From a virus, in IMG/VR virus record IMGVR_UViG_3300048011_000459, positions 1-36,159 of that record: 36,159 nt of DNA; one strand, given 5' to 3'. The first letter of the stretch is position 1, and each line of letters begins with the position of its first letter. Of the stretch, positions 1 to 20,500 are shown piece by piece. The notes beneath the pieces are model-generated. The model saw only the letters and a program-made list of their open reading frames with translations. It was not told where the DNA came from and made no database searches. A program made the translations under genes and the position numbers.

Positions 1-118
1 AATTTCCGAGTGGCATTATGGCCGAACAACACGGCTTAATGTCTCCGTTAGGATATAAAAATATTTCTGTAAATGGCAATGCACAAAATGTATTTCGAGA
101 AGACTTTTTTTTACTCAT
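1..118 (-). CDS. Radical SAM protein, N-terminal fragment (cut by left window edge)
   Basis: Reading leftwards from an ATG at 118, 39 codons are open to the window edge. The residues include CALPF at 12-16, then PNGDIKPCC ending at C30-C31, then MPLGN. This is the typical beginning of phage 'twitch' radical SAM proteins, in which an N-terminal cysteine set for an auxiliary iron-sulfur cluster precedes the CxxxCxxC core. C12 and C31 are separated by 18 residues, the same spacing as in the three complete permuted paralogues to the right. The start overlaps the upstream gene's stop by 8 bases (ATGAGTAA), the same junction type seen several times in this operon. The radical SAM core itself lies outside the window, so the family call rests on the short N-terminus and the context. 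Confidence 0.75.
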   Translation of the reverse strand, partial: MSKKKSSRNTFCALPFTEIFLYPNGDIKPCCSAIMPLGN

Positions 119-1370
119 TTTTTTTGGGTTCTCTCCAATTACGCGACTTATCTGTCATATCTTCGTGTGTCCAAATTCTATCTACTCTGCTATATGTACC
201 GCAGATATTTGCACAATATGCCATTTTGCCGGCATCGCAACTAGGCTTCTGCCATGAGTCAGTATATAGCCTGTCTAAGTGTCCTCGTGACATTATATCC
301 TTTAACGAGTGTAATTCAAGATTAAAATTATCCCAGCCATATTTTTGTGTTTCGTGATGTAATTGTAAACTCTGACCATCACCGTGTGTTCCAACTAAAT
401 GAGTGCCTGCATAACAACATGGCATAACTCTTCCAAAATTGTCAACAAAGATTTCAATACCCGAGTCTCGGGTCCTTGCTTTACATTTAATATCAGCAGT
501 ATCTAATTGTGTGTTATCTTCTTTAGCAAGCTGTGCATATGCATTATCTACCATATCTTGATAGTTGTGCGGGGTCTGTCTATTTTTTCTTAAACTCTTA
601 TATTCTGCAGGATCAAAGTTCCAATACCCTGTTTGTTCTTCGCCAATTGGTTTTTCAATATTTCTATTGTTTGGGTCTATCGGAGCATCAATGTAATATT
701 CCAGCTCTCCTTCTCTTGACACAGCTGGCATTCTACGTAACGAACCGTTATCGTCTACTCCAAGTGCTTTCTTAGGCACAAATGCATAAAAACCCAATTC
801 TGTTGACAACTTCTTTGCTTCTTGTAGTTGATGTTCGTTATGTTTGAATATTAGAAAATCCCATTCAGCTTGTGCGCCTGTTTCTAAATATGCCTTTACG
901 TTTGCGTATAACTTATCCCATACGACGTTTCGTCTATACAAGTGATTGGTATCTTCAAGTCCATCTATACTAAAAGTAATTCTCCAAGACCAAGGCCCCT
1001 TTTCTTTACTTGCAAAAAGTTTCCCCATTTTACTCCAAAATTCTGGATTACGCATTCCGCCATTGGTATTCATTCTTACACAAGTTTCAGGATTTGTTTC
1101 AGCAATATATTCACATATTTCGTAAATATCTTTTGCAACACCTGGGTCTCCATGTACTCCACAAAACAATATTACTTCCATTTTATCTAGAACTTCTTTA
1201 GGAAAGTATTTTTTAAATTTATCTAAAGTAATCTGTCCTAATTCAAGATCAGGTCGTATTAAGGGACTGTTACCAAAAAATCGAGTACACATTGGACAGG
1301 CAGCATTACACGAATTTGTTAGTTCGATATGCATTTGAGACAGCTTTTCCCAAGTAAAAAATTCATTCAT
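111..1370 (-). CDS. Radical SAM protein with C-terminal SPASM-like cysteine region
   Basis: A 419-residue protein. The radical SAM motif CNAACPMC (C21, C25, C28) lies near the N-terminus and should bind the [4Fe-4S] cluster that cleaves S-adenosylmethionine. A core strand follows with FCGVHGDPG, where GGE is usual, and later SIDG. The C-terminal part holds C296, C318-C319, C378, C386 and C390, a pattern like SPASM/twitch domains that hold one or two extra clusters. Family members modify peptides or other small substrates; the substrate here is unknown. Unlike the neighbouring paralogues, its auxiliary cysteines follow the core instead of preceding it. A good ribosome site (AGGA, 8 bases before ATG) is present, and the start overlaps the previous stop by 8 bases (ATGAATGA). 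Family call is firm, function is not. Confidence 0.88.
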   Translation of the reverse strand: MNEFFTWEKLSQMHIELTNSCNAACPMCTRFFGNSPLIRPDLELGQITLDKFKKYFPKEVLDKMEVILFCGVHGDPGVAKDIYEICEYIAETNPETCVRMNTNGGMRNPEFWSKMGKLFASKEKGPWSWRITFSIDGLEDTNHLYRRNVVWDKLYANVKAYLETGAQAEWDFLIFKHNEHQLQEAKKLSTELGFYAFVPKKALGVDDNGSLRRMPAVSREGELEYYIDAPIDPNNRNIEKPIGEEQTGYWNFDPAEYKSLRKNRQTPHNYQDMVDNAYAQLAKEDNTQLDTADIKCKARTRDSGIEIFVDNFGRVMPCCYAGTHLVGTHGDGQSLQLHHETQKYGWDNFNLELHSLKDIMSRGHLDRLYTDSWQKPSCDAGKMAYCANICGTYSRVDRIWTHEDMTDKSRNWREPKKNE

Positions 1371-2577
1371 AACTTGTATCCTGAATTAATTGATAATACT
1401 CTGGATATACCGCTTGGAAAGATTGATTTCTATAAGCATCTTGCCATTTAATTTCGTTCATTGCTTTATTCCATAAAGCAATATCAAAGTTGCCGTCTTT
1501 TAAAAATTGGATTATGCCAGGTAAATAGTTCTGCCAACAGTTTGCATCTTTTGGGATTAATTCTAATCTGTTAATTATTGTTTCTCTAATACCATCTGGT
1601 ATTATCTTCATATTATAATGATCAGGATCATGAACTAAATTTAAGTATATTCCAAAATCACTATAGTTTTCTTCATACTCTGCAATAATTTCAGGTAAAC
1701 TATGAATATTAATTGAACTTAAAGTAACAATCCAACTCATGTGTATGTTTTTATGAGTTTTTGCAAATTCTCTCGCCTTCTTTAAAGTTGCTTCTGCTTC
1801 GCTCCATTTTCCTGGATATCTCATGTAATTAAATCCAGGACCAACGCCGTCAATACTAAAGTTTAGATTTAAATGTCTAAACTCTCTAAAAATTTCAACA
1901 TCGTCTGGCCAGTGAGTACAATTTGTAGCATAATGTAGCTCTATATTTTTTGCATAATCAAGCTCAACTGCTTTTTTTAATGTTCCCCACATTTTTTCAC
2001 TCATGAATGGTTCGCCACCGTAAAAATCAATCTGATTAATGTTTTCTAAATTATTATCAAAATCATCCCAAAATGGACTAGTAGGCTCATATTGCTTACT
2101 ATATTTACGCATTGATGCAGCATAATCTTTAAAATTTTTGTAATATTTTTTTTCTTGCATGTCGAACTTTTCTTTTAACCAGGTACTACTGGAATGAGGT
2201 CCGCATGTTCTGCATTTAAGATTACATTGATTGCCTAAATTAAGTTCTAACTTAGCTAGTCCTTTGAATGGTGTGCCGCCGTCTTTGACCATTCCTAAAT
2301 ATTTTTCATTATCTCGTAACCTCTTACTCTGTCTACCAGAATCTTCTTCTGTCCAACAAAGCCTACATACTTCATGTTGTATACCGTTGGCAAGTGCTTC
2401 TCTTACTTCAACAAAATCGGGTTGATTAAAATTTTCTTTAATCGTTTGTTCACCTAGAGATATTTTTCTATCCATAAATCTTGTCATACAACAAATTTTT
2501 GTGTGTCCGGTATTATCTCCACTCATTGCATGTTCAGCATTTACACACCAGCTTTTTTTATTTTTTTCATTTATCAT
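1363..2577 (-). CDS. Twitch-type radical SAM protein (permuted cysteines)
   Basis: A 404-residue protein. An N-terminal cysteine region (C11, C29-C30, C71 and C74, the last two in CRLCW) precedes the radical SAM core motif CNLKCRTC (C118, C122, C125). The core continues with FYGGEPF (GGEP at 187-190), which binds the SAM amino group, then YATNC and SIDG. This layout matches phage proteins annotated as 'twitch domain-containing radical SAM protein', where the N-terminal cysteines probably hold a second iron-sulfur cluster. The start ATG overlaps the stop of the 37-residue peptide gene by 4 bases (ATGA), so the two should be translated together. No clear ribosome site of its own is visible, which fits coupling. 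Substrate unknown. Confidence 0.88.
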   Translation of the reverse strand: MINEKNKKSWCVNAEHAMSGDNTGHTKICCMTRFMDRKISLGEQTIKENFNQPDFVEVREALANGIQHEVCRLCWTEEDSGRQSKRLRDNEKYLGMVKDGGTPFKGLAKLELNLGNQCNLKCRTCGPHSSSTWLKEKFDMQEKKYYKNFKDYAASMRKYSKQYEPTSPFWDDFDNNLENINQIDFYGGEPFMSEKMWGTLKKAVELDYAKNIELHYATNCTHWPDDVEIFREFRHLNLNFSIDGVGPGFNYMRYPGKWSEAEATLKKAREFAKTHKNIHMSWIVTLSSINIHSLPEIIAEYEENYSDFGIYLNLVHDPDHYNMKIIPDGIRETIINRLELIPKDANCWQNYLPGIIQFLKDGNFDIALWNKAMNEIKWQDAYRNQSFQAVYPEYYQLIQDTSYE

Positions 2578-2701: not shown

Positions 2702-4072
2702 CTATTTTCCATAATTTTCATATACCTCTTTACAATCATTGTAAAAATCTTCGTACATAGGAAATACTTCTAGTAAGTTAAGTCCAACTACACGCTTATC
2801 ATTCTCTGTAAAGAAACTATAAAAATCTCTGCGTCCTTCACGAATTTTTTCTTCACTTACTGGATTCTGATCTGCATAATCTCTTACACGTTTCATTTTT
2901 TCATATTCTACGTCTGTAAACCATTCTTTATTATCTTGGATAAATTTTAAATTTGCATCCATATGTTTCATTAAAAAATCTCTCGGCAATATAGTTATCA
3001 TCCAATGTGGCGGCTCTTTAAGATAAGGAGTGTCAAACCCCAAAGCTTCTTTACCGTATGTCTTTCTCCAGTCTATTACTTTTTGTAAGAAATTTTGGAA
3101 AGTTGCAACACATAAAATATTGAAAGTACACATAATATTAACTTTAAATCCACGGTCGATTGCTTCTAGAAAATTTCTTTCCCAATGATCGCACTGTAAT
3201 CCAGTTCTCATATATTCTGCCTGAGATCCCCAACCTTCAATACTAGTAAACAAGCTAAACTTTTTAATTTTATTTTGATCTTGAAGACTTTGTACTCTGT
3301 TGTACATTTTATCCATTTTTTGAGTAGTAACACCCAAGTTACTATTAATACTAATTTCTAATTGTGGCGCTGGCTCTTTTTCAAGTAAGTCAAAGAACTG
3401 CATTGCACCTGGATTCATTAGAGGTTCGCCTCCTGTAATACGCAATGTATGTAAATCTTTACGTAAATCAGGCCACCACTTCCAAAACGCTTCTACATAA
3501 GGATTATCATCTTTAGGTCCGTAATAGGTTCCGTTTTCTAAGAAGTCAATACCGTATTGGTTGTATGTTAAATCGTAGTTGCCGTGTTTTTTGATCTCAT
3601 CCATCCATAATGTACTTGCTTGCGGACTACAATAACCGCAACGATAGTTACATCCGTTACCAAACGACACTTCTAAGTAACGAGGATTAATCGGGGCGTC
3701 CCACGGAAGTTCTGCTAATTTTTCAATTTCATCAACAGCAAAATTACTACTGCTATGAATCATTCGATCTGAAATGTGGTCTCCATCGAGATCTTCAATA
3801 TTCCAGCAGTAGTAACATTCATCAGGACGCCCTCCTTCTAGCATAGTTTTACGCTGTTCCTTTTTGAACTTAGTATTATGCAATGCACTAGGATCTGCTT
3901 CAATTTCGACCAAAGGAATATGATGCGGACGTGGATGATAACAGCTATGATTATCGCCTGTATGTAGATAAAGAGTTTGATGAAGCCATTTCATTGCACA
4001 CATTCCTGGTCCAACTTTATTAAGTCTGTCCCTAGTATGTTTAATTCTATCAATATTTGTGTTATTTGTCAT
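2702..4072 (-). CDS. Twitch-type radical SAM protein (456 residues)
   Basis: The N-terminal half-domain carries C25, C44 (in SCYHPRPHHIP), C86 and C89 (ECYYCW), spaced C-x18-C-x41-C-x2-C. The radical SAM core follows with CNYRCGYC (C141, C145, C148) after the strand RYLEVSFGNG, then RITGGEPLMN (GGEP 214-217). The product closely resembles the 468-residue protein next door, including the LHNTxxKKEQRK and PYVxAFWxWxPD stretches, so the pair arose by duplication. Known relatives are phage twitch radical SAM proteins without assigned substrates. The start overlaps the stop of the upstream paralogue by 4 bases (ATGA). After its stop, 14 bases separate it from the small peptide gene. The family assignment is secure; the reaction is not known. 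Confidence 0.9.
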   Translation of the reverse strand: MTNNTNIDRIKHTRDRLNKVGPGMCAMKWLHQTLYLHTGDNHSCYHPRPHHIPLVEIEADPSALHNTKFKKEQRKTMLEGGRPDECYYCWNIEDLDGDHISDRMIHSSSNFAVDEIEKLAELPWDAPINPRYLEVSFGNGCNYRCGYCSPQASTLWMDEIKKHGNYDLTYNQYGIDFLENGTYYGPKDDNPYVEAFWKWWPDLRKDLHTLRITGGEPLMNPGAMQFFDLLEKEPAPQLEISINSNLGVTTQKMDKMYNRVQSLQDQNKIKKFSLFTSIEGWGSQAEYMRTGLQCDHWERNFLEAIDRGFKVNIMCTFNILCVATFQNFLQKVIDWRKTYGKEALGFDTPYLKEPPHWMITILPRDFLMKHMDANLKFIQDNKEWFTDVEYEKMKRVRDYADQNPVSEEKIREGRRDFYSFFTENDKRVVGLNLLEVFPMYEDFYNDCKEVYENYGK

Positions 4073-5475
4073 ATATTTTTACACTCTTTTATAAATTGTT
4101 TTAATTCTGGAAATACTTTATTAATATCTGTATTGCGGCGTTTATCGTGCTGCGTAAAGAACAAATTAAAATTCTTCTTTGCTCTTAGTTCTTCGTCAGT
4201 ATTTAATGGTTGACTTGCCCATTTAAGTAGTCTTCTGACTTTATCAACTTCAAAGTCTTTAAATCCTTTAAATCTATTAAAAACAGATTCAGGATTTGCT
4301 TCCATATAATCAATACTATACTGTAATGACTGTAATAATTCAGGAGATGCTAACTTCATACTCATCCACTTAGGGTCATGTAGCATAGGAGTATCAAACC
4401 ATATCAATTGCCTATCTGTATTAAACTCTCGTCTTAGTTTGTGTATGTTTTTAATGTAAGTTAACCAATTAGGCAAACTAAGTAAATTAGCTGTAATAAT
4501 AAAGGTGAGGCTGTGCTTGCTGCTTTCTCTAAGATATTGTGTTATATTTTTATATAATACATCAAAGTCTAATCCGTGTCGAATATACTCTGCTTGTTCT
4601 CCCCAACTATCTAAACTACAAAATAACATAAAGTGATCAACTGCGTCTCGATCTGTTATTTCTTTTACATCTTCCATAAATTTTTGCCACTGATTACCAG
4701 GAGGACAGCAGTTACTTGTAATACTTAATTGCAATTGTTTATTAGGAGTTTTCTTTACATAATCAAATACTTTAAAAGTATTTTTGTCCATTAAAGGTTC
4801 ACCGCCGGTCATACGAAATGTTTTTAGTGTAGGATATACGTCAGGGAACCATTCCCAGAATGCTTGCACATAAGGGCCATCAGGAGAATTATTAATTCCT
4901 AAACTTTCTACCCATGCTGGATCATTATGGCCGCCGTCTACTAATTGATAAGCACCATGTTTTTTAACTTCTTTATGCCATTCTGTTGATAAGTGCGGAC
5001 TACAATATGCACATTTTAAATTGCAAGCTTGATTAAAATTAACTTCTAAATATCTAGGTTTAGGATTTTTTTCAACTTGTGCTGCTTCTATAAGACCGGC
5101 TTCATACACATCTTTACTACGATATGCACGATCACTAATATTACCTTGATCTTCTAGTGCCCAGCAAAATTCACACTCTTTAGGCCGTTCTCCTGCAAGC
5201 ATCTTTTTACGTTGCTCTTTTTTATACTCAGTGTTATGTAATGCATCAGAACTTTTAGCAAGTTCTTCCAAAGGAATGTTGTGTGCAGGAGGATGATAAC
5301 AACTGTGTGTTTTTCCGGTAGGCAGATGTAGACTCACACTATACCATTTAGCTAAACAAAAGCTGGGACTAACTTTGTTAAGGCCTTTAAGTAAATCTTG
5401 GGCATCTTCAAAATATTGGCTTTTATACCTTCCCTTAAACAGTTTTACTACATCGCCTTTTAATTTTTCATTCAT
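4069..5475 (-). CDS. Twitch-type radical SAM protein (468 residues)
   Basis: A paralogue of the 456-residue protein downstream. Its N-terminal cysteines are C40, C59 (SCYHPPAHNIP), C101 and C104 (ECEFCW), with exactly the same C-x18-C-x41-C-x2-C spacing. The core motif CNLKCAYC (C151, C155, C158) follows RYLEVNFNQA, and RMTGGEPLMD holds GGEP at 224-227. The extra N-terminal 15 residues relative to the paralogue are Lys-rich. The start overlaps the preceding sugar-transferase-like gene by 4 bases (ATGA), tying radical SAM and glycosyltransferase genes into one transcript. Two paralogues kept side by side suggest two different positions or substrates modified, or a heterodimer; both are inference. 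Confidence 0.9.
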   Translation of the reverse strand: MNEKLKGDVVKLFKGRYKSQYFEDAQDLLKGLNKVSPSFCLAKWYSVSLHLPTGKTHSCYHPPAHNIPLEELAKSSDALHNTEYKKEQRKKMLAGERPKECEFCWALEDQGNISDRAYRSKDVYEAGLIEAAQVEKNPKPRYLEVNFNQACNLKCAYCSPHLSTEWHKEVKKHGAYQLVDGGHNDPAWVESLGINNSPDGPYVQAFWEWFPDVYPTLKTFRMTGGEPLMDKNTFKVFDYVKKTPNKQLQLSITSNCCPPGNQWQKFMEDVKEITDRDAVDHFMLFCSLDSWGEQAEYIRHGLDFDVLYKNITQYLRESSKHSLTFIITANLLSLPNWLTYIKNIHKLRREFNTDRQLIWFDTPMLHDPKWMSMKLASPELLQSLQYSIDYMEANPESVFNRFKGFKDFEVDKVRRLLKWASQPLNTDEELRAKKNFNLFFTQHDKRRNTDINKVFPELKQFIKECKNI

Positions 5476-6389
5476 AGTTTTTCTATAAACCTTTGGTTAT
5501 CTGTTCTAGACGGGTGCTGATACACTGCTTTAAAGAACTTACTTTGTTGTGCGTCAAGTGGTTGTTCTGCGATAGGTATATCTAGTTCGTTAATTAACTT
5601 AATGCCGTATTCTTCAATCTCATAATCAACATCTTCAATCGACTCGAAAGAAACTTTCCATAAATCATTTAGATACTTAAAGTCGCGTACTTGCACATAG
5701 TCCCAGTCTGTACACATTGTCATATACAATCCTGCCCTTGTGCCTAAGATAGCCCAGTCGCCGTTTTCTACGTCTTTGCCTACCATACTCCAAATGTATA
5801 ACCAGTGTAAGCAGCGCCAGTGATTGTTTTTAAATTCTTCTTTGCTAATCCTTACTCCACGATCTGTTGCAAGTTTTACACCTTCTCTAAATCCTGCTCT
5901 CCATGCTTGTGCAGGTGTTTCGTTATTGTACACATCAGAGTAGCAACTGTTCATCTGAATATACTGTGCATCCCAGCAGAAATCTACTTGCGCATGTGCA
6001 TTGTTAGGATCAGCGTTTTCATGTGTTTTCATCTTCAACACATATTCTTTAGGCCAACATTTTAATCCGCCGTTGCCGTACATTAATCCGTTAATTTCGT
6101 TACGACCACACCAGCTAATTACAGTGTTCTTTAAATCTGCATGTTCATCAAAGTCAATTTCTTGATTTAAAAAATCTTCACGTATGCGGTTGTCACCATC
6201 TACTGTAATAAAGCGATCTGTTTCGCTTAATCTTGCACAGGCTTTGTGTGCAGCATCCGAACCTTCAACTCCATGTACACGTTTAGCCCATGGCACTTTT
6301 TTACACAAGTCTGCATAATTTTTTTCTGCGTTTGGTTCATCATAACTTAAATAGATAATATCATAGTCTATCGGTTTAAATTTTGCCAT
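5472..6389 (-). CDS. Probable GT-A-fold glycosyltransferase (305 residues)
   Basis: The N-terminus reads as an alternating strand-helix start (DYDIIYLSYDEPNAEKNYA), followed at residues 60-67 by FITVDGDN. That DGD sits where GT-A glycosyltransferases carry the DxD motif that holds the metal and nucleotide sugar. A Trp/Cys-rich middle region (WCGRNEINGLMYGNGGLKCW) fits an acceptor or donor pocket. I recognise the general type from phage genomes but not a named family, so nucleotide-sugar transfer is inferred from the DGD strand and from the two clear glycosyltransferases upstream. The start overlaps the stop of the 314-residue gene by one base, and a GAGG ribosome site lies 7 bases ahead of ATG. 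Alternative: a nucleotidyltransferase of related fold. Confidence 0.5.
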   Translation of the reverse strand: MAKFKPIDYDIIYLSYDEPNAEKNYADLCKKVPWAKRVHGVEGSDAAHKACARLSETDRFITVDGDNRIREDFLNQEIDFDEHADLKNTVISWCGRNEINGLMYGNGGLKCWPKEYVLKMKTHENADPNNAHAQVDFCWDAQYIQMNSCYSDVYNNETPAQAWRAGFREGVKLATDRGVRISKEEFKNNHWRCLHWLYIWSMVGKDVENGDWAILGTRAGLYMTMCTDWDYVQVRDFKYLNDLWKVSFESIEDVDYEIEEYGIKLINELDIPIAEQPLDAQQSKFFKAVYQHPSRTDNQRFIEKL

Positions 6390-7333
6390 TAAATAACCTC
6401 ATGAGCGTAATTTTCAAAGTACTTTGCTGTGTATATACTTACATTATTAGGATCAAGTTCTTGCTCAAACTTGAATGGAATTATTGATACCGACTCTGCT
6501 AACAAGTCTCCTACTGTAAATTCTAAACTTCTATAAAGTATATTCGGATCATATTTTTTAGTAACACTAAAATATAGTGTTTCTTTAGGATTATAACCGC
6601 TCATACGTAAAAATTTCTTAGTATGAGGGTTAATTGTAATGTTCCAGACATTATTATCAGTATCTTGTCTTACGATAATATCATTTTCTAAATTAATATT
6701 ACAATCATCATAATCAAACACAAATATATTGTTGTATTTTAAAATTAAATCTCCAACAGCTACCGAGTCGGTTATTTTTAATTCTTTATTTTTATCTCGA
6801 TATAATTTTACATTTTCAACAATAAGTTCTGCATTATCTGTAGTAAATTTAGTATTTGTAGGTTGATCTGTTAATAGCTTGTAAACAGTATCATTTATCC
6901 AAATATGCTGGCCTGCGAGATGCGGTAATTCATCATACCATACATCAATATGTAATCCAACATATTGTGGACGTAATGCAACAACCTTTGTGTAATCTTC
7001 TACAAAACCGTTGTTATTAGTGCGGTTGACTATAGGCAATTGATAACACATTGTTGCTGCTGTATTATGACTATCATCGTATGCTATTTCTTTTAGTCTT
7101 ACTTGCTTAGAACTTACGTCATATGTTATAGTGAATTCTTCAGTCCTTCGTTCGCCAGTAAGAATAGGCTTCACTTCTTCAGTATCGATTTCAAAAATTT
7201 CAAATCCTTCTTCGAAAACTTTTCTTGAACTAATTTTGCTTATTTTACCAGTTTCTTTTTCGTAATAGACATAGGATTGTGTTGCAACAGGTGCAACACT
7301 AAAGTTTTTAATTAAAGACTGTAAATCAGACAT
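6389..7333 (-). CDS. Unknown 314-residue protein between glycosyltransferase genes
   Basis: I do not recognise a named family. The sequence is strand-rich, with regularly alternating hydrophobic residues and many Asp, Asn, Thr and Val, and has no signal peptide, membrane segment or metal-binding cysteine pattern (its two Cys are in TMCYQ and DDCNI). A stretch around residues 119-150 (VVALRPQYVGLHIDVWYDEL, then HIWINDTVYKLL) reads like a beta-sandwich. It begins with an AGGA ribosome site about 9 bases upstream and overlaps the upstream glycosyltransferase stop by 8 bases (reading ATGTCTGA on the minus strand), and its own stop overlaps the next gene by one base. The position between three sugar-transferase-like genes suggests a partner or target in the same pathway, or a small virion protein that is decorated. 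Confidence 0.75.
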   Translation of the reverse strand: MSDLQSLIKNFSVAPVATQSYVYYEKETGKISKISSRKVFEEGFEIFEIDTEEVKPILTGERRTEEFTITYDVSSKQVRLKEIAYDDSHNTAATMCYQLPIVNRTNNNGFVEDYTKVVALRPQYVGLHIDVWYDELPHLAGQHIWINDTVYKLLTDQPTNTKFTTDNAELIVENVKLYRDKNKELKITDSVAVGDLILKYNNIFVFDYDDCNINLENDIIVRQDTDNNVWNITINPHTKKFLRMSGYNPKETLYFSVTKKYDPNILYRSLEFTVGDLLAESVSIIPFKFEQELDPNNVSIYTAKYFENYAHEVI

Positions 7334-8168
7334 TTGTTAAATTCCTATAACGTTCTAATGCTGGTGATTTTTCTATAAAATCTTTTTCCGTATAATGTAA
7401 TATTCCGGCTTGTGTGTAGTTTCCAATTTTTAAGTTGGCATCTTTAGAAATATAAACACCTACTTGATCTTGCCAACTAGTTTGCACTTCGTTCCATCCC
7501 TGGCAGTAAGGTTTCATATGTGTAAAACTTGGAAATTTAGCAATTTTATTTGTTATAGATGATTCGCAATCTAATATTTTAGTAACAATTGCTGCACATA
7601 CATCAATACTCACATGCGTTGGACGCGATGACGCATCTAAATGTTGTTCATAAAATGTTTCCCAGTTATTAACCACTAATTCTAACCAAGTATAAAACTC
7701 TTGTGCAAATTCGCACTTTTTAAAATAATGAAACCCTGCAAATAAATTAGGAAGATTGTTTGCTATAAAGGTTTTTCTATAATAGCTAGTATCAGCAGAA
7801 GTACCTTTGTAGGTTAGTACACTGCTAGTAAAATACATTTCATAATTAGACAAGAAATCCCACCATACGTCAATATTTTGTAATACCAACATATCTGTGT
7901 CCATTACAATAGTTTCATCATATGGACTAGCATGATAAATTTTCCAGCGATTTTCTACCTTCCACTTGCTTTTGTTAGCACTATCGTTAAATGGAATAGG
8001 AATAATTTTATCAAAAAGACTTATGTATTCTTCTGGTACTTTATCGTTTGTAATTAAACTAATTGGTGTAGTATTATGAGTTTTTAAACTCATAGCCAGT
8101 AAACATGCTTGTTCTACATAATCATCATTATCGTTATTTTGCGCAAGAACTACAATTCCTTTAGTCAT
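7326..8168 (-). CDS. GT8-like glycosyltransferase (280 residues)
   Basis: The product starts MTKGIVVLAQNND and carries SPYDETIVMDTD, with the DTD at residues 90-92 as the DxD-type metal and nucleotide-sugar site of GT-A enzymes; the layout resembles family GT8 (glycogenin/LgtC-like). Later NLFAGFHYFKK and LHYTEK fit the acceptor side and the C-terminal His of this family. It is paralogous to the next gene upstream (MSKGVFLIARNNG, SPYDETLLMDTD). An ATG six codons further upstream is in frame, but I choose 8168 because it aligns with the paralogue's start, has a GAGGAG ribosome site 7 bases ahead, and gives the 8-base overlap (ATGACTAA) typical here. Sugar and acceptor are unknown. Confidence 0.78.
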   Translation of the reverse strand: MTKGIVVLAQNNDNDDYVEQACLLAMSLKTHNTTPISLITNDKVPEEYISLFDKIIPIPFNDSANKSKWKVENRWKIYHASPYDETIVMDTDMLVLQNIDVWWDFLSNYEMYFTSSVLTYKGTSADTSYYRKTFIANNLPNLFAGFHYFKKCEFAQEFYTWLELVVNNWETFYEQHLDASSRPTHVSIDVCAAIVTKILDCESSITNKIAKFPSFTHMKPYCQGWNEVQTSWQDQVGVYISKDANLKIGNYTQAGILHYTEKDFIEKSPALERYRNLTNV

Positions 8169-9012
8169 TTGCAAACTCCTCGTCAATAATTCTACTGAGA
8201 CTGGTCTTATTCATCACATGTATACTTTGACCAGAGGTTTGAATTGCCGTATATTCTCCTAGATAGTCTTTCTTTTCAACTAAAAACATCATGTTGTCAT
8301 CTTTTAATTGCCATAATAAATCTTTATCAATAGTATACATCATACTTCCAGGTAATTCTTGTACAAAGTCACCAGGTTGAAAACCATTCATAATATGCAC
8401 AGCAATACTAAATGCAAAATCATTTCTAAATAAGCTAGAAGTTATTTGATATACTCGTCGGTAATGATTCCATTCTTGTTCTATATGACTAATAAGATTA
8501 AAAAATATTTCATTTATTTCAGTTTTTCTAAAAAATACAACAGTTGCCCAATAAAAATCTACACTAGTATTGCTAATAGACCTAAACTCATCTTCTTCTC
8601 GAACCTTTGCAATATCGTCTGATTGCTTATACAACATAAGGTCAGACTTAGATTTAAAACAAGACTTTAATAAATCATTTGAAATAATATAATCAGTATC
8701 CATTAACAATGTTTCGTCATATGGAGACATTTCGTATACACTCGATCTGTTACTATTTTTAAAACTAGCCGTTTTTTTAAAGAGAGAACCATCAAAGAAA
8801 TATCTTAAATTAGTTCCGTCAGTCCATTCTAACTGAATAATTTTATCAAAGTCCTCAGTTCCATAAGTGTCTTTTAGATAGTCAACACTATCAGTGGCTA
8901 TAGATACTGGAACGCCCAAATGTCGCTTTATACGCTTTGCCAGAAATACCGATTGTTTTACATAATCAATATAGCCATTATTTCGTGCAATTAAAAATAC
9001 ACCTTTACTCAT
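8161..9012 (-). CDS. GT8-like glycosyltransferase (283 residues)
   Basis: Begins MSKGVFLIARNNGYIDYVKQ and carries SPYDETLLMDTD with the DTD at residues 105-107, the DxD-type site for metal and nucleotide sugar. The overall plan matches the tandem neighbour downstream, with a longer insert before the DxD (about residues 60-95, including DGTNLRYFFDGSLFKK). No membrane segment or signal peptide is seen, so it should act in the host cytoplasm. Its start overlaps the 116-residue gene's stop by 8 bases (ATGAGTAA). The ribosome site is weak (AGAG), which suggests coupling to the upstream gene. The tandem duplication implies two successive or alternative sugar transfers. Substrate unknown. Confidence 0.72.
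   Translation of the reverse strand: MSKGVFLIARNNGYIDYVKQSVFLAKRIKRHLGVPVSIATDSVDYLKDTYGTEDFDKIIQLEWTDGTNLRYFFDGSLFKKTASFKNSNRSSVYEMSPYDETLLMDTDYIISNDLLKSCFKSKSDLMLYKQSDDIAKVREEDEFRSISNTSVDFYWATVVFFRKTEINEIFFNLISHIEQEWNHYRRVYQITSSLFRNDFAFSIAVHIMNGFQPGDFVQELPGSMMYTIDKDLLWQLKDDNMMFLVEKKDYLGEYTAIQTSGQSIHVMNKTSLSRIIDEEFAND
8176..8181 (-). promoter_or_regulatory. Ribosome binding site GAGGAG deciding the GT8-like start
   Basis: GAGGAG on the minus strand lies 7 bases before the ATG at 8168. The alternative in-frame ATG at 8186 has no comparable site, so this site fixes the start. It is embedded in the last codons of the upstream gene. Confidence 0.7.
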
Positions 9013-9355
9013 AATTAACTAATTTCTCTACACTTCTGTTCTTCTTAAGATCCGAATACTTAGTGTAATAATCATTGGACGCACTAGTATAATTGTTAAT
9101 AATTTCTGAATAAAACTCTTCAATATCTGTTATCATACACGGAATATTATTATCGTCAGTGATTACAATTTCATCTTGATCAGCAGATACCATTGCACTT
9201 ACAAATGTAATCAATTCTCGAGTAATTGTAAATTGAGAACCATTATGAAAATAAATTAAATCTTCTTGGTATTTTTCTGCTAACAAACGTTTCTGATTAT
9301 TGAGTGTTAGCATGTAGTTAGAAAAGTCTAGTGCTTTTTCTAAACGCTCATCCAT
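9005..9355 (-). CDS. Small acidic 116-residue protein, first gene of the cassette
   Basis: No family recognised with confidence. The first 35 residues (MDERLEKALDFSNYMLTLNN, then QKRLLAEKYQ) look helical and could form a coiled coil. A middle part (FHNGSQFTITRELITFVSAM) resembles a hydrophobic core, and the rest (DEIVITDDNNIPC, then IEEFYSEIINNY) is acidic with a second helix. It is the promoter-proximal gene: an AGGAG ribosome site lies 7 bases before ATG, and a consensus sigma-70 promoter sits just upstream. It overlaps the following glycosyltransferase by 8 bases. Small proteins of this type are common in marine T4-like phages and have no known job. Confidence 0.75.
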   Translation of the reverse strand: MDERLEKALDFSNYMLTLNNQKRLLAEKYQEDLIYFHNGSQFTITRELITFVSAMVSADQDEIVITDDNNIPCMITDIEEFYSEIINNYTSASNDYYTKYSDLKKNRSVEKLVNYE

Positions 9356-9380
9356 AGTTAAACTCCTAGTTTATTGTACT

Positions 9381-9409
9381 AGTATATATTGAATTTTAAG
9401 ATTTGTCAA
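9381..9409 (-). promoter_or_regulatory. Consensus sigma-70 promoter for the accessory cassette
   Basis: On the minus strand TTGACA (9409-9404) and TATACT (9386-9381) are separated by exactly 17 bases of AT-rich DNA. The -35 hexamer is perfect and the -10 hexamer differs from TATAAT at one base. Transcription would begin around 9372-9376, about 20 bases before the first gene's ATG at 9355, with its ribosome site in between. It begins 12 bases past the stop codon of the last tail gene, so it separates the cassette from late transcription. Confidence 0.72.
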
Positions 9410-9420
9410 GAAAAGATTGG

Positions 9421-10410
9421 TTAAGATAGAGGTCTTATTAGAGTGCCAATAGGTTCAAGATCAATTATGACAGCATCATATGGAGTTTCATTAATTGCTA
9501 CTTGACTATTTGGCTTTGATATTTGTACATTACTATTGAAAGCACCAAATACTACTTCATCTATGCCATATGTGAGATCATTAGGGCGCCCGTCGATAAA
9601 TTCAACTTTGAATTGTATAGCAGATGTAGAATCTCCTGTTGTATATTCTCTTGCGTAAATATTATATCTATTACGTGCATATACATTTCCGCCTGTTCTT
9701 GAATATATCAAGCGATAACTAGTTGTAAGGTTATAATTGCCTATGTTAGACCCTGTGCCGATTGATGCGTTGTTGATTGTTTCATTGGCTTTAAAGCTAG
9801 TTGAACCCATTTCATTTAGGATAGTTTGCCAATCTACAGTTTTACTTTGACTTCCGGTATACTCAACATCTGCACTTAGTCTAATTTCGCTGCCTGAATT
9901 GAAAAAATGACGTCGGTCGAGATCAGTTGGCCAAGATATTGTAAAGATATGAGATATTTCAGTAGACCAAGCTGCTTCAGTATTAGGTCTATTACTAGAA
10001 GCACTAGGAATATTAATTAACTCCAGGTTTCCAGAAAACACTTCAAATTTATCAGCAGCAATTTGAGACGCTAACGTTTCTAGATTAATTATATATGCTT
10101 CTTCTATTTTGTCCGTGTCTAATAAATTAGAGTTATAATCACCAACAACAAATTCGTCTACAACTACATTAGCTGCACCAATTTGATGAGACCGGCACCT
10201 AACTAGATCAATATATAAATCTTCGTAATTTTGTGCAGTAATTTTATCTGCGTTAGCTAAATCATTTGCAGCACGAGAACCGAGCACACTGTTTGTACTA
10301 AAAAGCTGACCGTATCCAAATGTAGGAGTTGCAGGATTAGATTCCCCTAGTACCAAATTTATTTGGTCTCTAAGTGTATTATATCTACTGGCTAAAACTG
10401 TTGTTGGCAT
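9421..10410 (-). CDS. Virion structural protein, paralogue of the 307-residue gene
   Basis: A 329-residue protein. The N-terminal 90 residues (ASRYNTLRDQINLVLG, FGYGQ, ITAQNYEDLYIDLVRCRSHQ) look helical. A strand-rich domain starts near residue 150 with the motif DLRRHFFNSGSEIRLSADVE, then VDWQTILNEMG, SNIGNYNL and KVEFID. The RRxFFNxGxEIR motif and most of the layout recur in the next gene, so the two are duplicates. Such proteins occur beside tail-fibre genes in T4-like marine phages; a role as a fibre or baseplate-associated virion protein is inferred. A late-type promoter box stands in the 61-base gap ahead of it. It is the last gene of the tail block. Confidence 0.7.
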   Translation of the reverse strand: MPTTVLASRYNTLRDQINLVLGESNPATPTFGYGQLFSTNSVLGSRAANDLANADKITAQNYEDLYIDLVRCRSHQIGAANVVVDEFVVGDYNSNLLDTDKIEEAYIINLETLASQIAADKFEVFSGNLELINIPSASSNRPNTEAAWSTEISHIFTISWPTDLDRRHFFNSGSEIRLSADVEYTGSQSKTVDWQTILNEMGSTSFKANETINNASIGTGSNIGNYNLTTSYRLIYSRTGGNVYARNRYNIYAREYTTGDSTSAIQFKVEFIDGRPNDLTYGIDEVVFGAFNSNVQISKPNSQVAINETPYDAVIIDLEPIGTLIRPLS

Positions 10411-10434: not shown

Positions 10435-10442
10435 TATTTATT
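10435..10442 (-). promoter_or_regulatory. T4-late-type promoter box AATAAATA
   Basis: AATAAATA on the minus strand, one base off the T4 late consensus TATAAATA, lies 24 bases before the ATG at 10410 in a 61-base gap. Position and match suggest late transcription of the 329-residue gene; AT-richness means chance matches are possible. Confidence 0.42.
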
Positions 10443-10471: not shown

Positions 10472-11395
10472 TTATGATAAGGTCTGTGTGCTGAAGTATG
10501 TAGGTGCAATAACTACCACCTCGCCGTCTGCGCGGTAATGCTGTATAACACTTTCTAATCTGCCGTCTACATTATTGTCAACATTGTTGTCAAATACTAC
10601 ATCGTTAAATTCAATTTTAAATATAATACGATTATTTTGATCCGAACGTGCTTTAATACTATAAATATTTCCTGCGTATACTGAACTATATGTTCCTGAA
10701 CCAATTTTTTGATAAATTAGTTGATACCCGCTGTTTAAATCATAATTGCCGATCGAGCTACTGCCGCCTGTTGTAGAAATTGTTGTTTCTGCACCAAATT
10801 TTACAGTTCCAACACTAGAACACAACTCATTCCAGTCTAATCCTTTAGGCGTACTTGCGCTAGTATTATTTGCACTTATTCTGATTTCGCCACCTGTATT
10901 AAAAAAGAAACGTCGCGTATCTGCTGAGCTAAAAGTAACTTCTACTTCATGATATATTAAACCATTCCATGTACTAGATCTGGAACTAGTAATTGCAGGC
11001 TCTAATGCCGATTGCGAAGGGTCCATTGTGTTTTTGTCAGCAATAACATTATTCATAAGAGATTCAAAATCTTCAATACCTTTTTTGAAGCCATCTGGAT
11101 CAATACTAGTTACGCCATCGTCGTTAATAAAATTACTAGTATCTTCTGCTACAATGTTTAAATTTTGTATAACTTCAGCAATTCCAATATCACCCGGACC
11201 AACTTGATGTATCCTTGCTTTGAGAATATCAGAATAAATTGCATTTATGTCAGCAGCCTCAACTATATCACCGGTATTGTTAACTGGTGCACTTGTAAGC
11301 GATTGTCCGTATCCATTTTGTCCTGCGCCTGTTCCAAGTATTAGCTCAATACTGGATTGTAGGTTGTTAATTCGTGCTGCTGTGATGTCTGCCAT
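10472..11395 (-). CDS. Virion structural protein, 307 residues
   Basis: It shares with the following 329-residue protein a helical N-terminus (ARINNLQSSIELILG, NGYGQ, AADINAIYSDILKARIHQ) and a strand-rich C-terminal domain (DTRRFFFNTGGEIRISAN near residue 160, then LDWNELCSSVG, SSIGNYDLNSGYQLIYQ, FKIEFND). The two have drifted well apart outside these motifs. A ribosome site (AAGGA, about 6 bases ahead) supports the start, and only 12 bases separate it from the fibre gene upstream, so both share a transcript. No enzymatic motif is seen. The role as a tail/baseplate accessory protein is inferred from the context. Confidence 0.72.
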   Translation of the reverse strand: MADITAARINNLQSSIELILGTGAGQNGYGQSLTSAPVNNTGDIVEAADINAIYSDILKARIHQVGPGDIGIAEVIQNLNIVAEDTSNFINDDGVTSIDPDGFKKGIEDFESLMNNVIADKNTMDPSQSALEPAITSSRSSTWNGLIYHEVEVTFSSADTRRFFFNTGGEIRISANNTSASTPKGLDWNELCSSVGTVKFGAETTISTTGGSSSIGNYDLNSGYQLIYQKIGSGTYSSVYAGNIYSIKARSDQNNRIIFKIEFNDVVFDNNVDNNVDGRLESVIQHYRADGEVVVIAPTYFSTQTLS

Positions 11396-11407: not shown

Positions 11408-12892
11408 TTATACCTTTAGTACACATTCCACTAGTTTTTCGCCCTCATCATTATTGCTTTCAAGTGCAACACCAACTAAACTTCCGCCGTTAATTGCTGT
11501 ACTTGCACAACCATTATTATCAACATATACTGCTTGACCTTTTTTAACTGCGCCAATTACACGAACAGGTAAGCGCCCTTTAAGACCAATATATTGACCT
11601 TCTGCTTCACTATTCATCATTATAGCAGGATCAGTTGAAACAACACCAATTGCCATACAGCCTTGCTGTGTTGGCTCTACTTCGTGATCTTCATGTGAAC
11701 ATACACATACTACTGTGCCCGGAGCAAGTTCTTCTGCTGTAGTATATTTTTCTGCTAAGTCAGCATAACGTGCTTGAGTTGCAGTACCTTGGAATAAGTT
11801 TGCAGCAATATTGCCTGTTGCGTCTCTAACTGCTACTGTATTATTTGTTGCACTAGAACTTGCACTACGGAAATCACTGCCTACTCTTAATGTAGCAGCT
11901 TTAGATGCCTCACCTGTAAAGTTTGCTGCATACACATTTGACCAACCTAGGCTAGCACTGCCTAACGTAAATGTATTATCTGCTGCCGGGACAATTCCAG
12001 TTGCTGTAACTGTTCCTACATGTGTCAATACACCTGCGCCGCTGGTAACTTTTAATTTAATTACGCCATTATTAGTGATGTTTTGAATAATGCCATCAAA
12101 ACCATTATCATCAACTCTTAATTGAAAGTCTTGTGAATCACCAATTAAAATGCCGTCGTCTGGTGCTTCAATTGTACTTGCAAATACAGTATTTCCTACA
12201 CCTGTTTGTACAAAGTTTGCAGCAGAAATGCCGCCTAACTTGTCAGCATTTGTCGCAGTGCCGTGAAATCTATCAGCAGTACTTGTAACGCCAGCAGTGC
12301 CGTTTAATGTATTTCGTAATGTAATACCTCTGTGAATTCTATCAAAACCTTGTGATATTAATGAAGTTTCGCTTGCGTTTAGATCAAACTCGGTAGGGCT
12401 TGTCACATAAATTATTTCGTCTTCAATTACAGCAGCAATTATGCCTCTCGTAGCACTTGTAGTATCAAGAACTTCAAGGCTTTGCATTTGGGTTACACCT
12501 TCGCCTGCGTTCTGTGGTCCTATAAGTACAAAATTTGTTCCGTTATATACATACAATTGGTCATTTCCGCTGTCCCACCAAAAGTCAGCAGTCGCCAATC
12601 CAGTAGGTTCTGTAGTTCCTATTTCGGCTCCGCCTGTTGTGCGCCACTGTGTTCCGTCATAAAACTTTAATTTACTTGTTCCGCTGTCAAACCAAACTTG
12701 CCCACTGATTGGCCTTGCTGGCTGATTTGCTCCGCTAAAGTTTTCTAATAAAAACAAGAAGTTTTCATTTTGAATTTCACCGTACCCTGCGTAATTTTTA
12801 CCGATGAATTTAAGATCAGTTGTTTGATCAACTGTGCCATCTTCCACTGTAGTTAGCAGTGTATTGTTATATCTGTCTATTGCATATGCCAT
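11408..12892 (-). CDS. Tail fibre-like protein with cysteine-bearing C-terminal domain (494 residues)
   Basis: Residues 1-200 are the N-terminal module shared with the 636- and 684-residue proteins: YGEIQNENFLFLLENF, GQVWFDS, LKFYDGTQW, DFWWDSGNDQLYVYNG, LIGPQ. A fibre-like middle follows, with VPAADNTFTLGSASLGWSNV near residue 310. From about residue 369 the protein changes: QARYADLAEKYTTAEELAPG, then VVCVCSHEDHE and a compact strand-rich domain to the end. All five Cys I see lie in this last part. YADLAEKY...PGTVV domains end many phage fibre proteins and somewhat resemble phage appendage C-termini that act as trimerisation chaperones or cleave themselves; which applies here is unknown. A late-type box precedes the gene. 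Confidence 0.78.
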   Translation of the reverse strand: MAYAIDRYNNTLLTTVEDGTVDQTTDLKFIGKNYAGYGEIQNENFLFLLENFSGANQPARPISGQVWFDSGTSKLKFYDGTQWRTTGGAEIGTTEPTGLATADFWWDSGNDQLYVYNGTNFVLIGPQNAGEGVTQMQSLEVLDTTSATRGIIAAVIEDEIIYVTSPTEFDLNASETSLISQGFDRIHRGITLRNTLNGTAGVTSTADRFHGTATNADKLGGISAANFVQTGVGNTVFASTIEAPDDGILIGDSQDFQLRVDDNGFDGIIQNITNNGVIKLKVTSGAGVLTHVGTVTATGIVPAADNTFTLGSASLGWSNVYAANFTGEASKAATLRVGSDFRSASSSATNNTVAVRDATGNIAANLFQGTATQARYADLAEKYTTAEELAPGTVVCVCSHEDHEVEPTQQGCMAIGVVSTDPAIMMNSEAEGQYIGLKGRLPVRVIGAVKKGQAVYVDNNGCASTAINGGSLVGVALESNNDEGEKLVECVLKV

Positions 12893-12920: not shown

Positions 12921-12928
12921 TATTTATC
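12921..12928 (-). promoter_or_regulatory. T4-late-type promoter box GATAAATA
   Basis: GATAAATA on the minus strand differs from TATAAATA at the first base only. It lies 28 bases before the ATG at 12892, in the 40-base gap between two fibre genes, and would give the 494-residue gene its own late start. Confidence 0.42.
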
Positions 12929-16907: not shown

Positions 16908-16913
16908 CTCCTT
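16908..16913 (-). promoter_or_regulatory. Ribosome binding site AAGGAG of the collar-domain fibre gene
   Basis: AAGGAG on the minus strand lies 6 bases before the ATG at 16901 and overlaps the stop codon of the 200-residue gene by two bases, linking the two in one transcript. Confidence 0.7.
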
Positions 16914-17514
16914 ATCCTGCTAAACTTTGTACACGCACTGTATAGTCAATTTGAATTAGTCTATTAAGTGATTTTTGTACTGGATGGAAAATAACATGAG
17001 TAATTAAACGTCCAGTGCCGTCTGGTGAATAACTTCGTAATCCTAATTCATCAAACACATAAGGACTATCTGTTGCACTTGCGGTATCAAATGCATCTTG
17101 TTCGTTTGGTTCGCCATAATCTAACAAACAACTTACTACAATATCAGTATAGTTTGTGCCACTAACATGTCTTGTTTCTAATTTGTTACGTGCAGGGTCA
17201 GTATTGTTTACACTTCTGTCATCAACAACTTTAGTATAGGTTTGGTTGTATAAACTTGCATTTGTGCCTGTCGAGTTAGGTGTTAGGTAAGTAATAATAC
17301 CTGTAGGATCGATACTAGTACCGCCATTTCCGAAACTCATTTCATATATGAATCCTTGGCCTGCGTTACTCAAGCTTTCTGCCATTGCAACACTCATATT
17401 TTCATAATGAATTGCATTGCGTTTGTTAATATATACTTTTTGTGATTCAGGGTCAAATATTTTAATATGCCCTTGCACTAGTACTCCGTTTGTATCTTGC
17501 ATGTTATCGCTCAT
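16912..17514 (-). CDS. Virion structural protein, 200 residues
   Basis: A compact protein of alternating strands: NGVLVQGHIKIFDPESQKVY, then INKRNAIHYENMSVAMAESL, GFIYEMSFGNGG, then DYTVRVQSLAG at the end. I recall similar proteins in T4-like marine phages beside baseplate and fibre genes, annotated only as structural; no named domain is recognised. It stands between the giant virion protein and the three fibre proteins, so an adaptor that carries a fibre on the baseplate is a reasonable guess. The ribosome site AGGAA is close to the ATG, and a late-type promoter box overlaps the stop codon of the giant gene just upstream, making this the first gene of the fibre transcript. Confidence 0.68.
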   Translation of the reverse strand: MSDNMQDTNGVLVQGHIKIFDPESQKVYINKRNAIHYENMSVAMAESLSNAGQGFIYEMSFGNGGTSIDPTGIITYLTPNSTGTNASLYNQTYTKVVDDRSVNNTDPARNKLETRHVSGTNYTDIVVSCLLDYGEPNEQDAFDTASATDSPYVFDELGLRSYSPDGTGRLITHVIFHPVQKSLNRLIQIDYTVRVQSLAG

Positions 17515-17531
17515 TTATTTTTCCTATACTG

Positions 17532-17539
17532 TATTTATT
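17532..17539 (-). promoter_or_regulatory. T4-late-type promoter box AATAAATA overlapping the giant gene's stop
   Basis: AATAAATA on the minus strand, one base off TATAAATA, starts within the last codon (GAA) of the giant gene and includes its TAA stop. It lies 17 bases before the ATG at 17514. Three such boxes stand before late genes in this window. Confidence 0.45.
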
Positions 17540-20500
17540 CAGGTAGCCCAGATGTTCCTGCACGTAAGAATCTTGCAATCGAATTTTCTGTATCACCTAG
17601 TGCTATACCTTCTGCCGTCCAGCTTTGTCCTACTTTTTTGACTACTGTTACTCTTGTATCTTTTGCAGGAGTATTAATTAATGTAATTGTATTAGTATTT
17701 GCATCAAATGTAAAGTCTGATCCTATAGTAATATCACCTTCTGGACTATCTAATGCTATTGTATAATCAAATACATCTAGTGGTGTTTTACGCATACGCA
17801 CACCGCCTACAAACACTTCAATCTCGTTAATTGATGCTACTGGATACCCGATTTCGAACGTTGCTGTAAGACCATCTGCGCCAAGTTTTTTGTCTCCCTT
17901 ATCATCTATGTAAGATACATCAAATGACATTGTTCTGTCTTTATAAGGAACAGTCTTACTTATGTTTTGGTCAAACACTTTAGTACCTGTTTCGTATGTA
18001 TCCTTAACCCCTGTACCTAGTGTTCCTCTGCGAAGCTGTCGTAGTGTATTTTCTTCTTTAACAAAATATTCAATACGCTCACCTTCAATAAAGATTACAC
18101 CAGGTAAGTTTTGTCCTTTGTTTGGTTCTGACAGCTCAATAGCATCATCCAGTTCAATTCTTAAATCATAATAATTTAACGGCTGTGCTAGTTTAGCAGT
18201 AGATTTATCAAGGCGTTTAAAATGTGTTCTATTAAGCATGTCTTTAAACTGTCTGTATGCAAATTTAGGCTTGCTAATCGGTGCAGTAAAGTGGATAACG
18301 TCGATAACATCATCTGCGTCTGGCTGCTTAATTAACTGAACTTTCATTCTATCATCTGTAATATAATAATCTACACTCGGTGATAATAGTTCTCCATTAA
18401 CGCTTACCCATACATACTGTGCATCAACGGCAGATTTACGCAAGGCAATTTCACCAACAGTTGTTCTGCGATATGTAATATAATCGATATCTTCTGGTAT
18501 TAGCGCAGTTCTCGATATTACTTCGTAGTTAATGCGCTCTGTTCCTAATAAATTATGGTTTGTAAATTGTATTACCTCCACTGTTGCATTATCTGCAGGA
18601 GCATTGTCTAGTGTTACTGTATTTCCGTTAACTCTATATTCACCATCTGTAATTACGTACATTTCTAACAAGTCTCCCGAAAATCCTATGTCATCTGAAA
18701 GTATAATACTACTGTTTGCAATTTCAAAACGCCATTGTAGAGGAGTTGTAATTTCTACACCATTTAAAAATATCTTAACATCAGAAACATCTAGACTACC
18801 TGCAGGCATTTGGAATGTTTCTAATGCAAATTCGCGTTGACTATTTTCAGGAATAGTATATTGAATATTATATCCTGCATTTAGTATTTTATTATCTACT
18901 TTAACTAATACGTTATGTTCACTCGGAATTACATAAAGAGGAGCACTTGAAAGTGTAAATTCTCTAGTAGATGCATCACCATTAAATACGTCTTTGGTAA
19001 TTTGACTATAATTAACTTGTTCATCTGCTGAGAATACTGTGTAATTAATTACTGCGCCGTCTGCTACTACTTCTTCAAATCTAATAACTGTCTTAGGACC
19101 AGTCTCTGATTTAAATGCTGCAACAGTTTTTTGTTCGCCGTTAATACTTGCATATACACTTATATTCTCTTCCCAATCGACAGTAGTTTCGAATTCTGTA
19201 GTATCCCCGTCGCCTATTAGTTTACCATAATCTAATATGTTTTGAGTGCCTTGTGCAACTGTTACAATACTAAGTTCTGCACCTACTACTGCTGTATCAA
19301 GTGTTACAGTATTTGCAGCCCAGTTTATAGTATAATCAGTTTTCGGAAGTATAATATTGTTAACTTTTACAATAACTGCATCACTACTATTTGGAGTAAC
19401 TCCTAAGTCGTATACAAGTGTACTATCCATAATATAACTTTGACTATTAATAACACCTTGTCCTGCGCTGTCTCGTGTGAACACTTTGATATCTAATGTA
19501 TCCAATACTTGTCCTGGAATAACTTCTTCGGGGCCTCCTGAAGTAGTAGGAGTAACAAAGCCGTCGCCGTCTACAATAATTTCTTCCGCTGCAACACCAC
19601 GTGCTGATGTATAAGCTAAATCTCCGCCAGTTAGTGCAGTATCATAACTTTCTGCATCAGGAATAACACTACCGTCACTTGTAGTTTTTCTTACAACAAA
19701 TACATCACCGTCTAACAACGCTATGCCTAAATCTTGCACATAGATTACATCAGTTGTGCCATCGCCTGTAATACTGTTTGTAATAGCATTTACATTAGTA
19801 GGAGTGCCTGCATCAAAATTAGGATCATCAATTCTTACACCGTTTTTGTATAAGTTGTAAACAACACCATCTTCTAGTGCTGTACTTAATTGTACTGCAA
19901 TAGTTGATCCATCTGCTGTAAATATTTCATCTTCAAATGTATTATCAAACTCATCCCATGTATCAGTATACCAAGGAGAAGTGTCAAACCCTGCCGGTCC
20001 TGAAAAATCAAAACTACGTACTTCAACACCACCGTAATCAACGCCGTTCATTAGCTGTGCTAGATCTTTGCCATACATTCCTGCAACTGGATTATATGCA
20101 AAATTAATTCTATCCTCTGCATTTAACATGCTTAAAGGAATATTATATTCAACACGTATTGTTGCATTTAATTTTGGAGGATATGCAAATAGTATTTTTC
20201 CTTGTTCTCTGGTATAACTCTTGTCAGTATTTTTAATATTTTGGTATGTGTATTTGCTGCGCAATTGTAAGATATTATCAACATACACACTAACTTTTTT
20301 GTTGTCTAAATCCATAGGCCATTCAAGGAAGAATCTATTTTCAAATCCTGTGCCTGTAAATGTTTCTGTTTTGGATAATGTATCAAACGTAAATGTTCCG
20401 CTAGTTCTATCAAACTTAATTTTAATACTTGGACTTCTTACTAGTCCATTTCCTAATACAGCAGTTGCCTTTGCCGGAGTGCCATCTTCAGTTTGGGATC

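Follow-up and report, generated by a model that had tools for sequence, protein, structure and literature searches.

The stretch of viral DNA analysed here (an IMG/VR contig of 36,159 nts, hereafter the window) comes from a little-studied group of large marine phages within the T4 superfamily. Its baseplate wedge protein (32957-36145) is at best 34% identical to that of Atu_ph07/Phosso and about 30% identical to those of RaK2-type phages; a search of INPHARED returned no close DNA relatives of the window, and no tblastn match to the protein P116 (see below). Every gene of the window lies on the minus strand. In reading direction, the baseplate wedge gene is followed by the gene of a 5140-aa protein, the tail genes, P116 and 8 more genes. 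The features relevant to this work are, in the same direction:

17532-17539, minus strand: late-type box AATAAATA before the gene 16912-17514 (16/20 relatives)
12921-12928, minus strand: late-type box GATAAATA before the tail fibre gene 11408-12892 (29/29 relatives)
10435-10442, minus strand: late-type box AATAAATA before T329 (ATAAATA in 26/31 relatives at T329)
9421-10410, minus strand: T329, which ends the tail block and lies immediately upstream of the promoter (gene order in relatives)
9381-9409, minus strand: sigma-70 type promoter (sequence, promoter scan, conservation)
9363-9367, minus strand: ribosome-binding site AGGAG, 7 nt 5′ of the ATG (sequence; most relatives carry AGGAG or a closely similar sequence)
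9005-9355, minus strand: P116, first gene of the putative operon, 116 aa, DUF4376/tail-fibre-chaperone-like fold (similarity and model)
8161-9012, minus strand: GTb, glycosyltransferase-like, 283 aa, its start overlapping the P116 stop (conserved second gene; YDETLLMDTDY motif)
7326-8186, minus strand: GTa, GT8/glycogenin-like glycosyltransferase (match to the glycogenin-1 structure profile; invariant D90 and D92)
6389-7333, minus strand: u314, variable, with a CBM5/12-like segment in its long forms (relatives' sequences, model)
5472-6389, minus strand: u305, conserved, VDGD motif, possible glycosyltransferase (conservation)
4069-5475, minus strand: twitch-domain radical SAM protein (NF033640, 322 bits, cut-off 170)
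2702-4072, minus strand: twitch-domain radical SAM protein (NF033640, 297 bits)
1363-2577, minus strand: twitch-domain radical SAM protein (NF033640, 288 bits)
111-1370, minus strand: radical SAM protein (Pfam Radical_SAM E 5e-6, below the curated cut-off; PHROG 21308)

The single 5140-aa reading frame (17535-32957) follows the gp6-like gene and has counterparts of 5185-5270 aa in relatives; it may correspond to the giant, VrlC-like baseplate protein known from marine T4-like phages. T329 was judged by eye to be a paralogue of the gene 10472-11395 and has no match in PHROGs.

Within the cassette that starts with P116, starts and stops overlap through most of its length, and the genes from P116 through the radical SAM genes appear to be arranged as in one operon. 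The order P116-GTb-GTa-u314-u305 is constant in nearly all sufficiently long loci of relatives; downstream of it, the set of radical SAM and other genes changes between loci. Three of the radical SAM proteins exceed the NF033640 cut-off (288-322 bits), while the fourth, at 111-1370, reaches only 50 bits. GTa matches glycogenin-1 over residues 6-106 (E 1e-6) and its DxD site, D90-x-D92, is invariant, which places it in GT8. GTb has no Pfam or PDB sequence match and no meaningful PDB profile match; it is assigned as glycosyltransferase-like because of its motif and its likeness to GTa. Similarly, u305 has no database match and its PDB profile search gave no meaningful result; DGD or DTD motifs are present in u305 as well as in GTb. 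Within the otherwise constant core, u314 varies, ranging from 185 to 469 aa in relatives, with short and long forms occurring in related phages. The long forms contain an inserted segment with a weak CBM5/12 match (E 0.02), and the u314 model matches locally the chitin-binding domain of chitinase C, with a probability of 0.99 over 44 columns but an E value of 0.4. Otherwise, its fold search gave local or weak matches, including weak ones to tail fibre structures.

Paralogues of u305 (224-227 aa) are found further downstream in the cassette of some relatives, preceded by a sigma-70 type promoter of their own (G004:C1:52182-52216 in L099, G007:C1:52901-52935 in L104, L029:18788, L032:17498 and L050:9478); other copies lack it (L035, L048 and L053). 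The -10 box of these promoters ends about 6 nt before the ATG, which would give a leaderless transcript.

Upstream of the P116 ATG (position 9355), the minus strand carries TTGACA (9409-9404), a 17-nt spacer and TATACT (9386-9381). The arrangement of these hexamers with a ribosome site and an ATG had been noted in a preliminary description of this DNA, and the promoter was confirmed at precisely 9381-9409; the strand, which that description did not name, is the minus strand. The site conforms to the sigma-70 pattern (TTGACA/TATAAT, 16-18 nt apart): its hexamers match 11 of the 12 consensus bases and an extended -10 is absent, although the sigma consensus of the actual host may differ. The pattern TTGACA-N15-18-TATAMT occurs only once in the window, at this position. 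The window is AT-rich, and its dinucleotide-shuffled versions contain on average 2.9 sites matching at least 11 of 12 bases with a spacer of 16-18 nt; likewise, a promoter scan of 20 kb returned 85 promoter-like sites against 85 expected. For the single 65-nt gap before P116, simple arithmetic from the shuffle rate gives a chance of about 0.0015 for such a site. Because shuffled sequence holds that many matches, the window by itself is no proof of a promoter, and we dropped any claim of significance drawn from it alone.

The preliminary description had proposed comparing the same site in related genomes. Loci were fetched through similarity to the P116 protein, never through the promoter. A first scan of IMG/VR gave 543 P116 relatives (80 kept), a search with a profile gave 568, and 3 more were found in genome assemblies; the comparison covers 99 loci with 50 distinct upstream sequences. 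The promoter is kept in 48 of these 50, which share ancestry and hence are not independent: 40 have it in place, as defined by TTGAC-N16-18-TATAAT-like hexamers, 8 have it about 45 nt farther upstream, and it is absent from 2. Random windows of 165 nt from the same loci score 1.5%. Among 31 anchored in-place sequences, pairwise identity amounts to 98.5% in the hexamers, 58% in the spacer and 54% at the third codon positions of P116. The promoter was retained in loci with different upstream genes (L057, L067-L072 and L087), and even the P116 homologue of L193, with a protein identity of 35%, is preceded by TTGACA-N17-TATAGT. Two lineages lack a canonical site, L090 entirely, and L082/L083 retaining TGTTATACT but no -35 box. 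Judging from these alignments, the hexamers of the P116 site are under purifying selection as a promoter. We consider the site a real promoter because of this conservation in relatives, and not because of a single 11/12 match; moreover, since the core gene order is constant and the promoter is kept next to different upstream neighbours, it belongs to the cassette and not to the tail gene.

Three P116 relatives, L191, L192 (Neomarinimicrobiota MAG RS350) and L193 (Gammaproteobacteria MAG MED685), come from bacterial-genome bins. As these are probably misbinned phage contigs, they are no evidence on the host.

A different picture emerges for the tail block. When ATAAATA was counted within 70 nt upstream of genes in distinct relatives, it was found at the three gaps listed above and in 0/36 relatives before P116; neither form of the T4-type late promoter, TATAAATA or NATAAATA, was present upstream of the P116 start (0/36). 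On the other hand, sigma-70 matches lie within 70 nt of P116 in 29/36 relatives and almost nowhere else in the tail block or cassette. Four larger records of relatives show the same late boxes, including one at the gp6-like gene. The contrast drawn in the preliminary description between this promoter and the T4-late-type boxes of the tail gaps is thus correct; the boxes are conserved at three gaps, and the short gaps before 11395, 14843 and 16901 have none.

A short element, AACCAATCTCC and variants of it, is located just 5′ of the -35 box (9405-9425 in the window) and is conserved in most of the in-place promoters; it is absent from L086, L087, L174 and L179, whose promoter is intact. In the class with the shifted site (L053, L078, L080, L084, L163, L170, L186 and L191), the sigma-70 promoter lies about 45 nt farther upstream, in several cases with an extended -10. 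Here a conserved element, TTCAG-CTTC ... GAATATATAAT, is found between promoter and ribosome-binding site, and CAGTCTTC, similar to AACCAATCTCC, is kept about 23 nt before ATATATAAT near the ATG. In the records that match the combination of CAG box and ATATATAAT, it occurs only at P116, apart from one chance-level match in a bacterial assembly. Two further candidates were rejected: a conserved leader hairpin in the shifted class, for which single folds were suggestive in some sequences but yielded no consensus structure, and a second general promoter class, GCGNATATATAMT, with 0-1 occurrences per record.

Two other explanations of the site itself have to be considered. The motif could be a functionless chance match and the cassette simply the end of the late transcript, as the roughly three 11/12 matches expected in the window and the lack of a terminator between the tail genes and the cassette would allow; this is contradicted by hexamer conservation far above that of the spacer and of synonymous positions, by the retention in 48/50 upstream sequences even with different upstream genes, and by late boxes that are missing, of the gaps compared, at the P116 gap only, so that we regard it as very improbable. 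Alternatively, the site might be a middle promoter that depends on a phage activator and is not used early. The conserved bases upstream of the -35 box (AACCAATCTCC) and the similar CAGTCTTC of the shifted class would fit such an activator site. However, with a -35 box this close to perfect no activator is needed, TTGACA occupies the -35 position and the gap contains no T4 MotA box (TGCTTtA at -30), the element is missing from four loci despite an intact promoter, and the CAG box with ATATATAAT does not recur elsewhere in these records. A middle promoter is consequently a reading to which we give little weight, although more than to a chance match.

To see which genes share this promoter type, the records of 22 relatives were searched for perfect sigma-70 sites. 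Such sites are rare (mostly 0-7 per record, against 0-1 for a reversed-pattern control) and usually include that of P116. Perfect sites that are likewise conserved stand upstream of the genes of a late sigma factor (PHROG 12791, in four records), of GTP cyclohydrolase and of a metallopeptidase/VWA protein, and another is close to an SbcD-like nuclease gene; slightly looser sites precede those of a 5′-3′ exonuclease and an AAA ATPase. One record of 357 kb (L083) departs from this pattern, with 48 perfect sites. There, about 20 sigma-70 promoters close to consensus stand in tandem over about 12 kb (G001:C1:11663-23296), almost all of them with a spacer of 16 nt, in what looks like a region of early genes.

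In T4-like cyanophages, transcription of early genes is attributed to host sigma-70 polymerase in its unmodified form, and that of late genes to NATAAATA (PMC2984593). Because of the promoter type and of the genes that share it, we infer that the P116 operon is likely transcribed early, or early/middle, by the host polymerase. This agrees with the preliminary proposal of early transcription by unmodified host polymerase as far as the promoter is concerned, which is of sigma-70 type, distinct from the late boxes and common to the late sigma gene; the timing itself would follow from these properties.

The same description held that the promoter isolates the cassette from late transcription, and here the gene arrangement points the other way. 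The cassette runs in the same direction as the tail block, the -35 box comes only 11 nt after the upstream gene's stop codon, and terminator prediction gave nothing between the two blocks (in the first 20 kb, a terminator scan gave 8 predictions against 8.3 in shuffled sequences). As there is neither a terminator nor room for one before the cassette, late read-through into it is expected. The P116 promoter should thus add an early input without insulating the cassette.

The protein P116 has no significant match in PHROGs, Pfam or PDB sequences. Its model (pLDDT 89) was compared with a viral fold library (BFVD), in which the best match is an uncharacterised phage protein (E 9e-7), and DUF4376 proteins make up many of the named matches in the top 30 (E 2e-3 to 1e-1, TM 0.5-0.65). 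DUF4376 proteins are encoded directly after tail fibre genes, and one of them, V22 gp27, is a demonstrated fibre chaperone (PMC7289586; PMC10579305; PMC10877375); the P116 gene comes directly after T329, the last gene of the tail block. Like the chaperones of Alteromonas phages V22 (gp27) and A5 (gp9) and like Campylobacter F341_034, which are small proteins encoded directly 3′ of a fibre gene, P116 is predicted to fold as a helix, two hairpins and a helix, and the G-F and DDN-P motifs align in register. In contrast to them, it shows no significant sequence or profile match and heads an enzyme operon with its own early-type promoter. The Pfam family PF14301 (DUF4376) gave no match at E ≤ 1 in 18 records and none at E ≤ 10 among 33 P116 members, and an hhalign profile comparison was not significant (E 0.23). 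Since both fall short of significance, membership in DUF4376 was rejected, and we treat the link as a working likeness by fold.

According to the preliminary description, the cassette acts on host metabolism or surface and is not a virion-maturation set. This goes further than the evidence allows, since P116 resembles tail-fibre chaperones in fold and position, and the carbohydrate-binding-like segment of u314 is as compatible with fibre maturation or host recognition as with modification of the host surface. The early-type promoter alone cannot settle the target, because a chaperone or a modifying enzyme is usefully made before its late substrate. T4 gp57A is such a catalytic helper, stocked early, ahead of the late structural proteins. 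An early host-takeover set, directed at host surface glycans or metabolism and apart from virion building (for example, a change of the O-chain that blocks co-infecting phages), would be compatible with the early-type promoter, with the GT8-like enzyme and with the comparable pelagimyophage cluster, for which its authors proposed O-chain modification (PMC7029224). Yet with no terminator to separate it the cassette should be transcribed late too, its first protein resembles tail-fibre chaperones, and it directly follows the fibre genes in most relatives, all of which makes a pure host-takeover set doubtful. The cassette may instead serve the virion, P116 acting as a fibre chaperone, the glycosyltransferase and radical SAM enzymes modifying fibre or baseplate proteins (perhaps u314), and the early promoter stocking these helpers. 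The matches of the P116 model to DUF4376 proteins in the viral library, the position of P116 after T329, a possible counterpart to that of DUF4376 chaperones after a tail fibre gene (PMC7289586, PMC10579305), and the CBM5/12-like and weak tail-fibre structural matches of u314 speak for it; the silence of Pfam DUF4376 in all 18 records and the profile comparison at E 0.23 speak against it. We see a virion-directed role as possible, at clearly less than even odds. A bolder version, in which the host-type promoter in the late tail block would provide the machinery that matures or disguises fibres (P116, a new family in >500 viral contigs, with the glycan enzymes) before the fibres are made, is at this stage tentative and rather unlikely.

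The site, its conservation, its contrast with the late boxes and the gene order can be accommodated in one scheme, in which timing, read-through and substrate are the proposed elements. Late in infection, host polymerase equipped with the gp55-type sigma factor of the phage would read the tail genes from ATAAATA promoters. The internal sigma-70 promoter would allow transcription of the operon ahead of this gp55-type late switch, and the late promoters upstream would later add operon transcript through read-through. The operon could then constitute a host-recognition cluster, combining a fibre-chaperone-like protein with sugar-transfer and radical SAM enzymes that act on host-surface glycan or on fibres. 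Taken jointly, a selected sigma-70 promoter of the P116 operon, an early start with late read-through and, most likely, a host-recognition cluster are the best explanation, with a probability of roughly 0.78.

Uncultivated marine phages commonly carry cassettes of glycosyltransferases and radical SAM proteins beside their tail fibres, and what these cassettes do has been guessed from position alone. A conserved early-type promoter inside a late block is independent evidence on timing, and it marks one operon with a fixed first gene, P116. Furthermore, TTGACA-N17-TATAMT before P116 pinpoints where transcripts can be mapped and is a simple marker to look for in metatranscriptomes.

The closest parallels come from two groups of phages. 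The T4-like cyanophages S-PM2 and Syn9 have near-consensus host-type promoters at non-structural genes, NATAAATA at structural genes and a gp55 homologue (PMC2984593); in the present, distantly related phages, however, the host-type promoter drives an enzyme operon from within the late tail region. Pelagimyophages have a host-recognition cluster, in which a variable island beyond the giant baseplate protein and the tail fibres holds radical SAM cassettes and GT8 enzymes (PMC7029224). In the window and its relatives, GT8 and radical SAM genes likewise occupy a variable island, which comes after the fibre genes and that of the putative giant baseplate protein. Middle and late promoters were not found in the pelagimyophage study (PMC7029224), which followed a single-genome approach, whereas comparison makes early and late promoters readable from genomes of this kind. 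Unlike in the pelagimyophage cluster, both kinds of promoter are visible here, and the variable part comes after a fixed core, P116-GTb-GTa-u314-u305.
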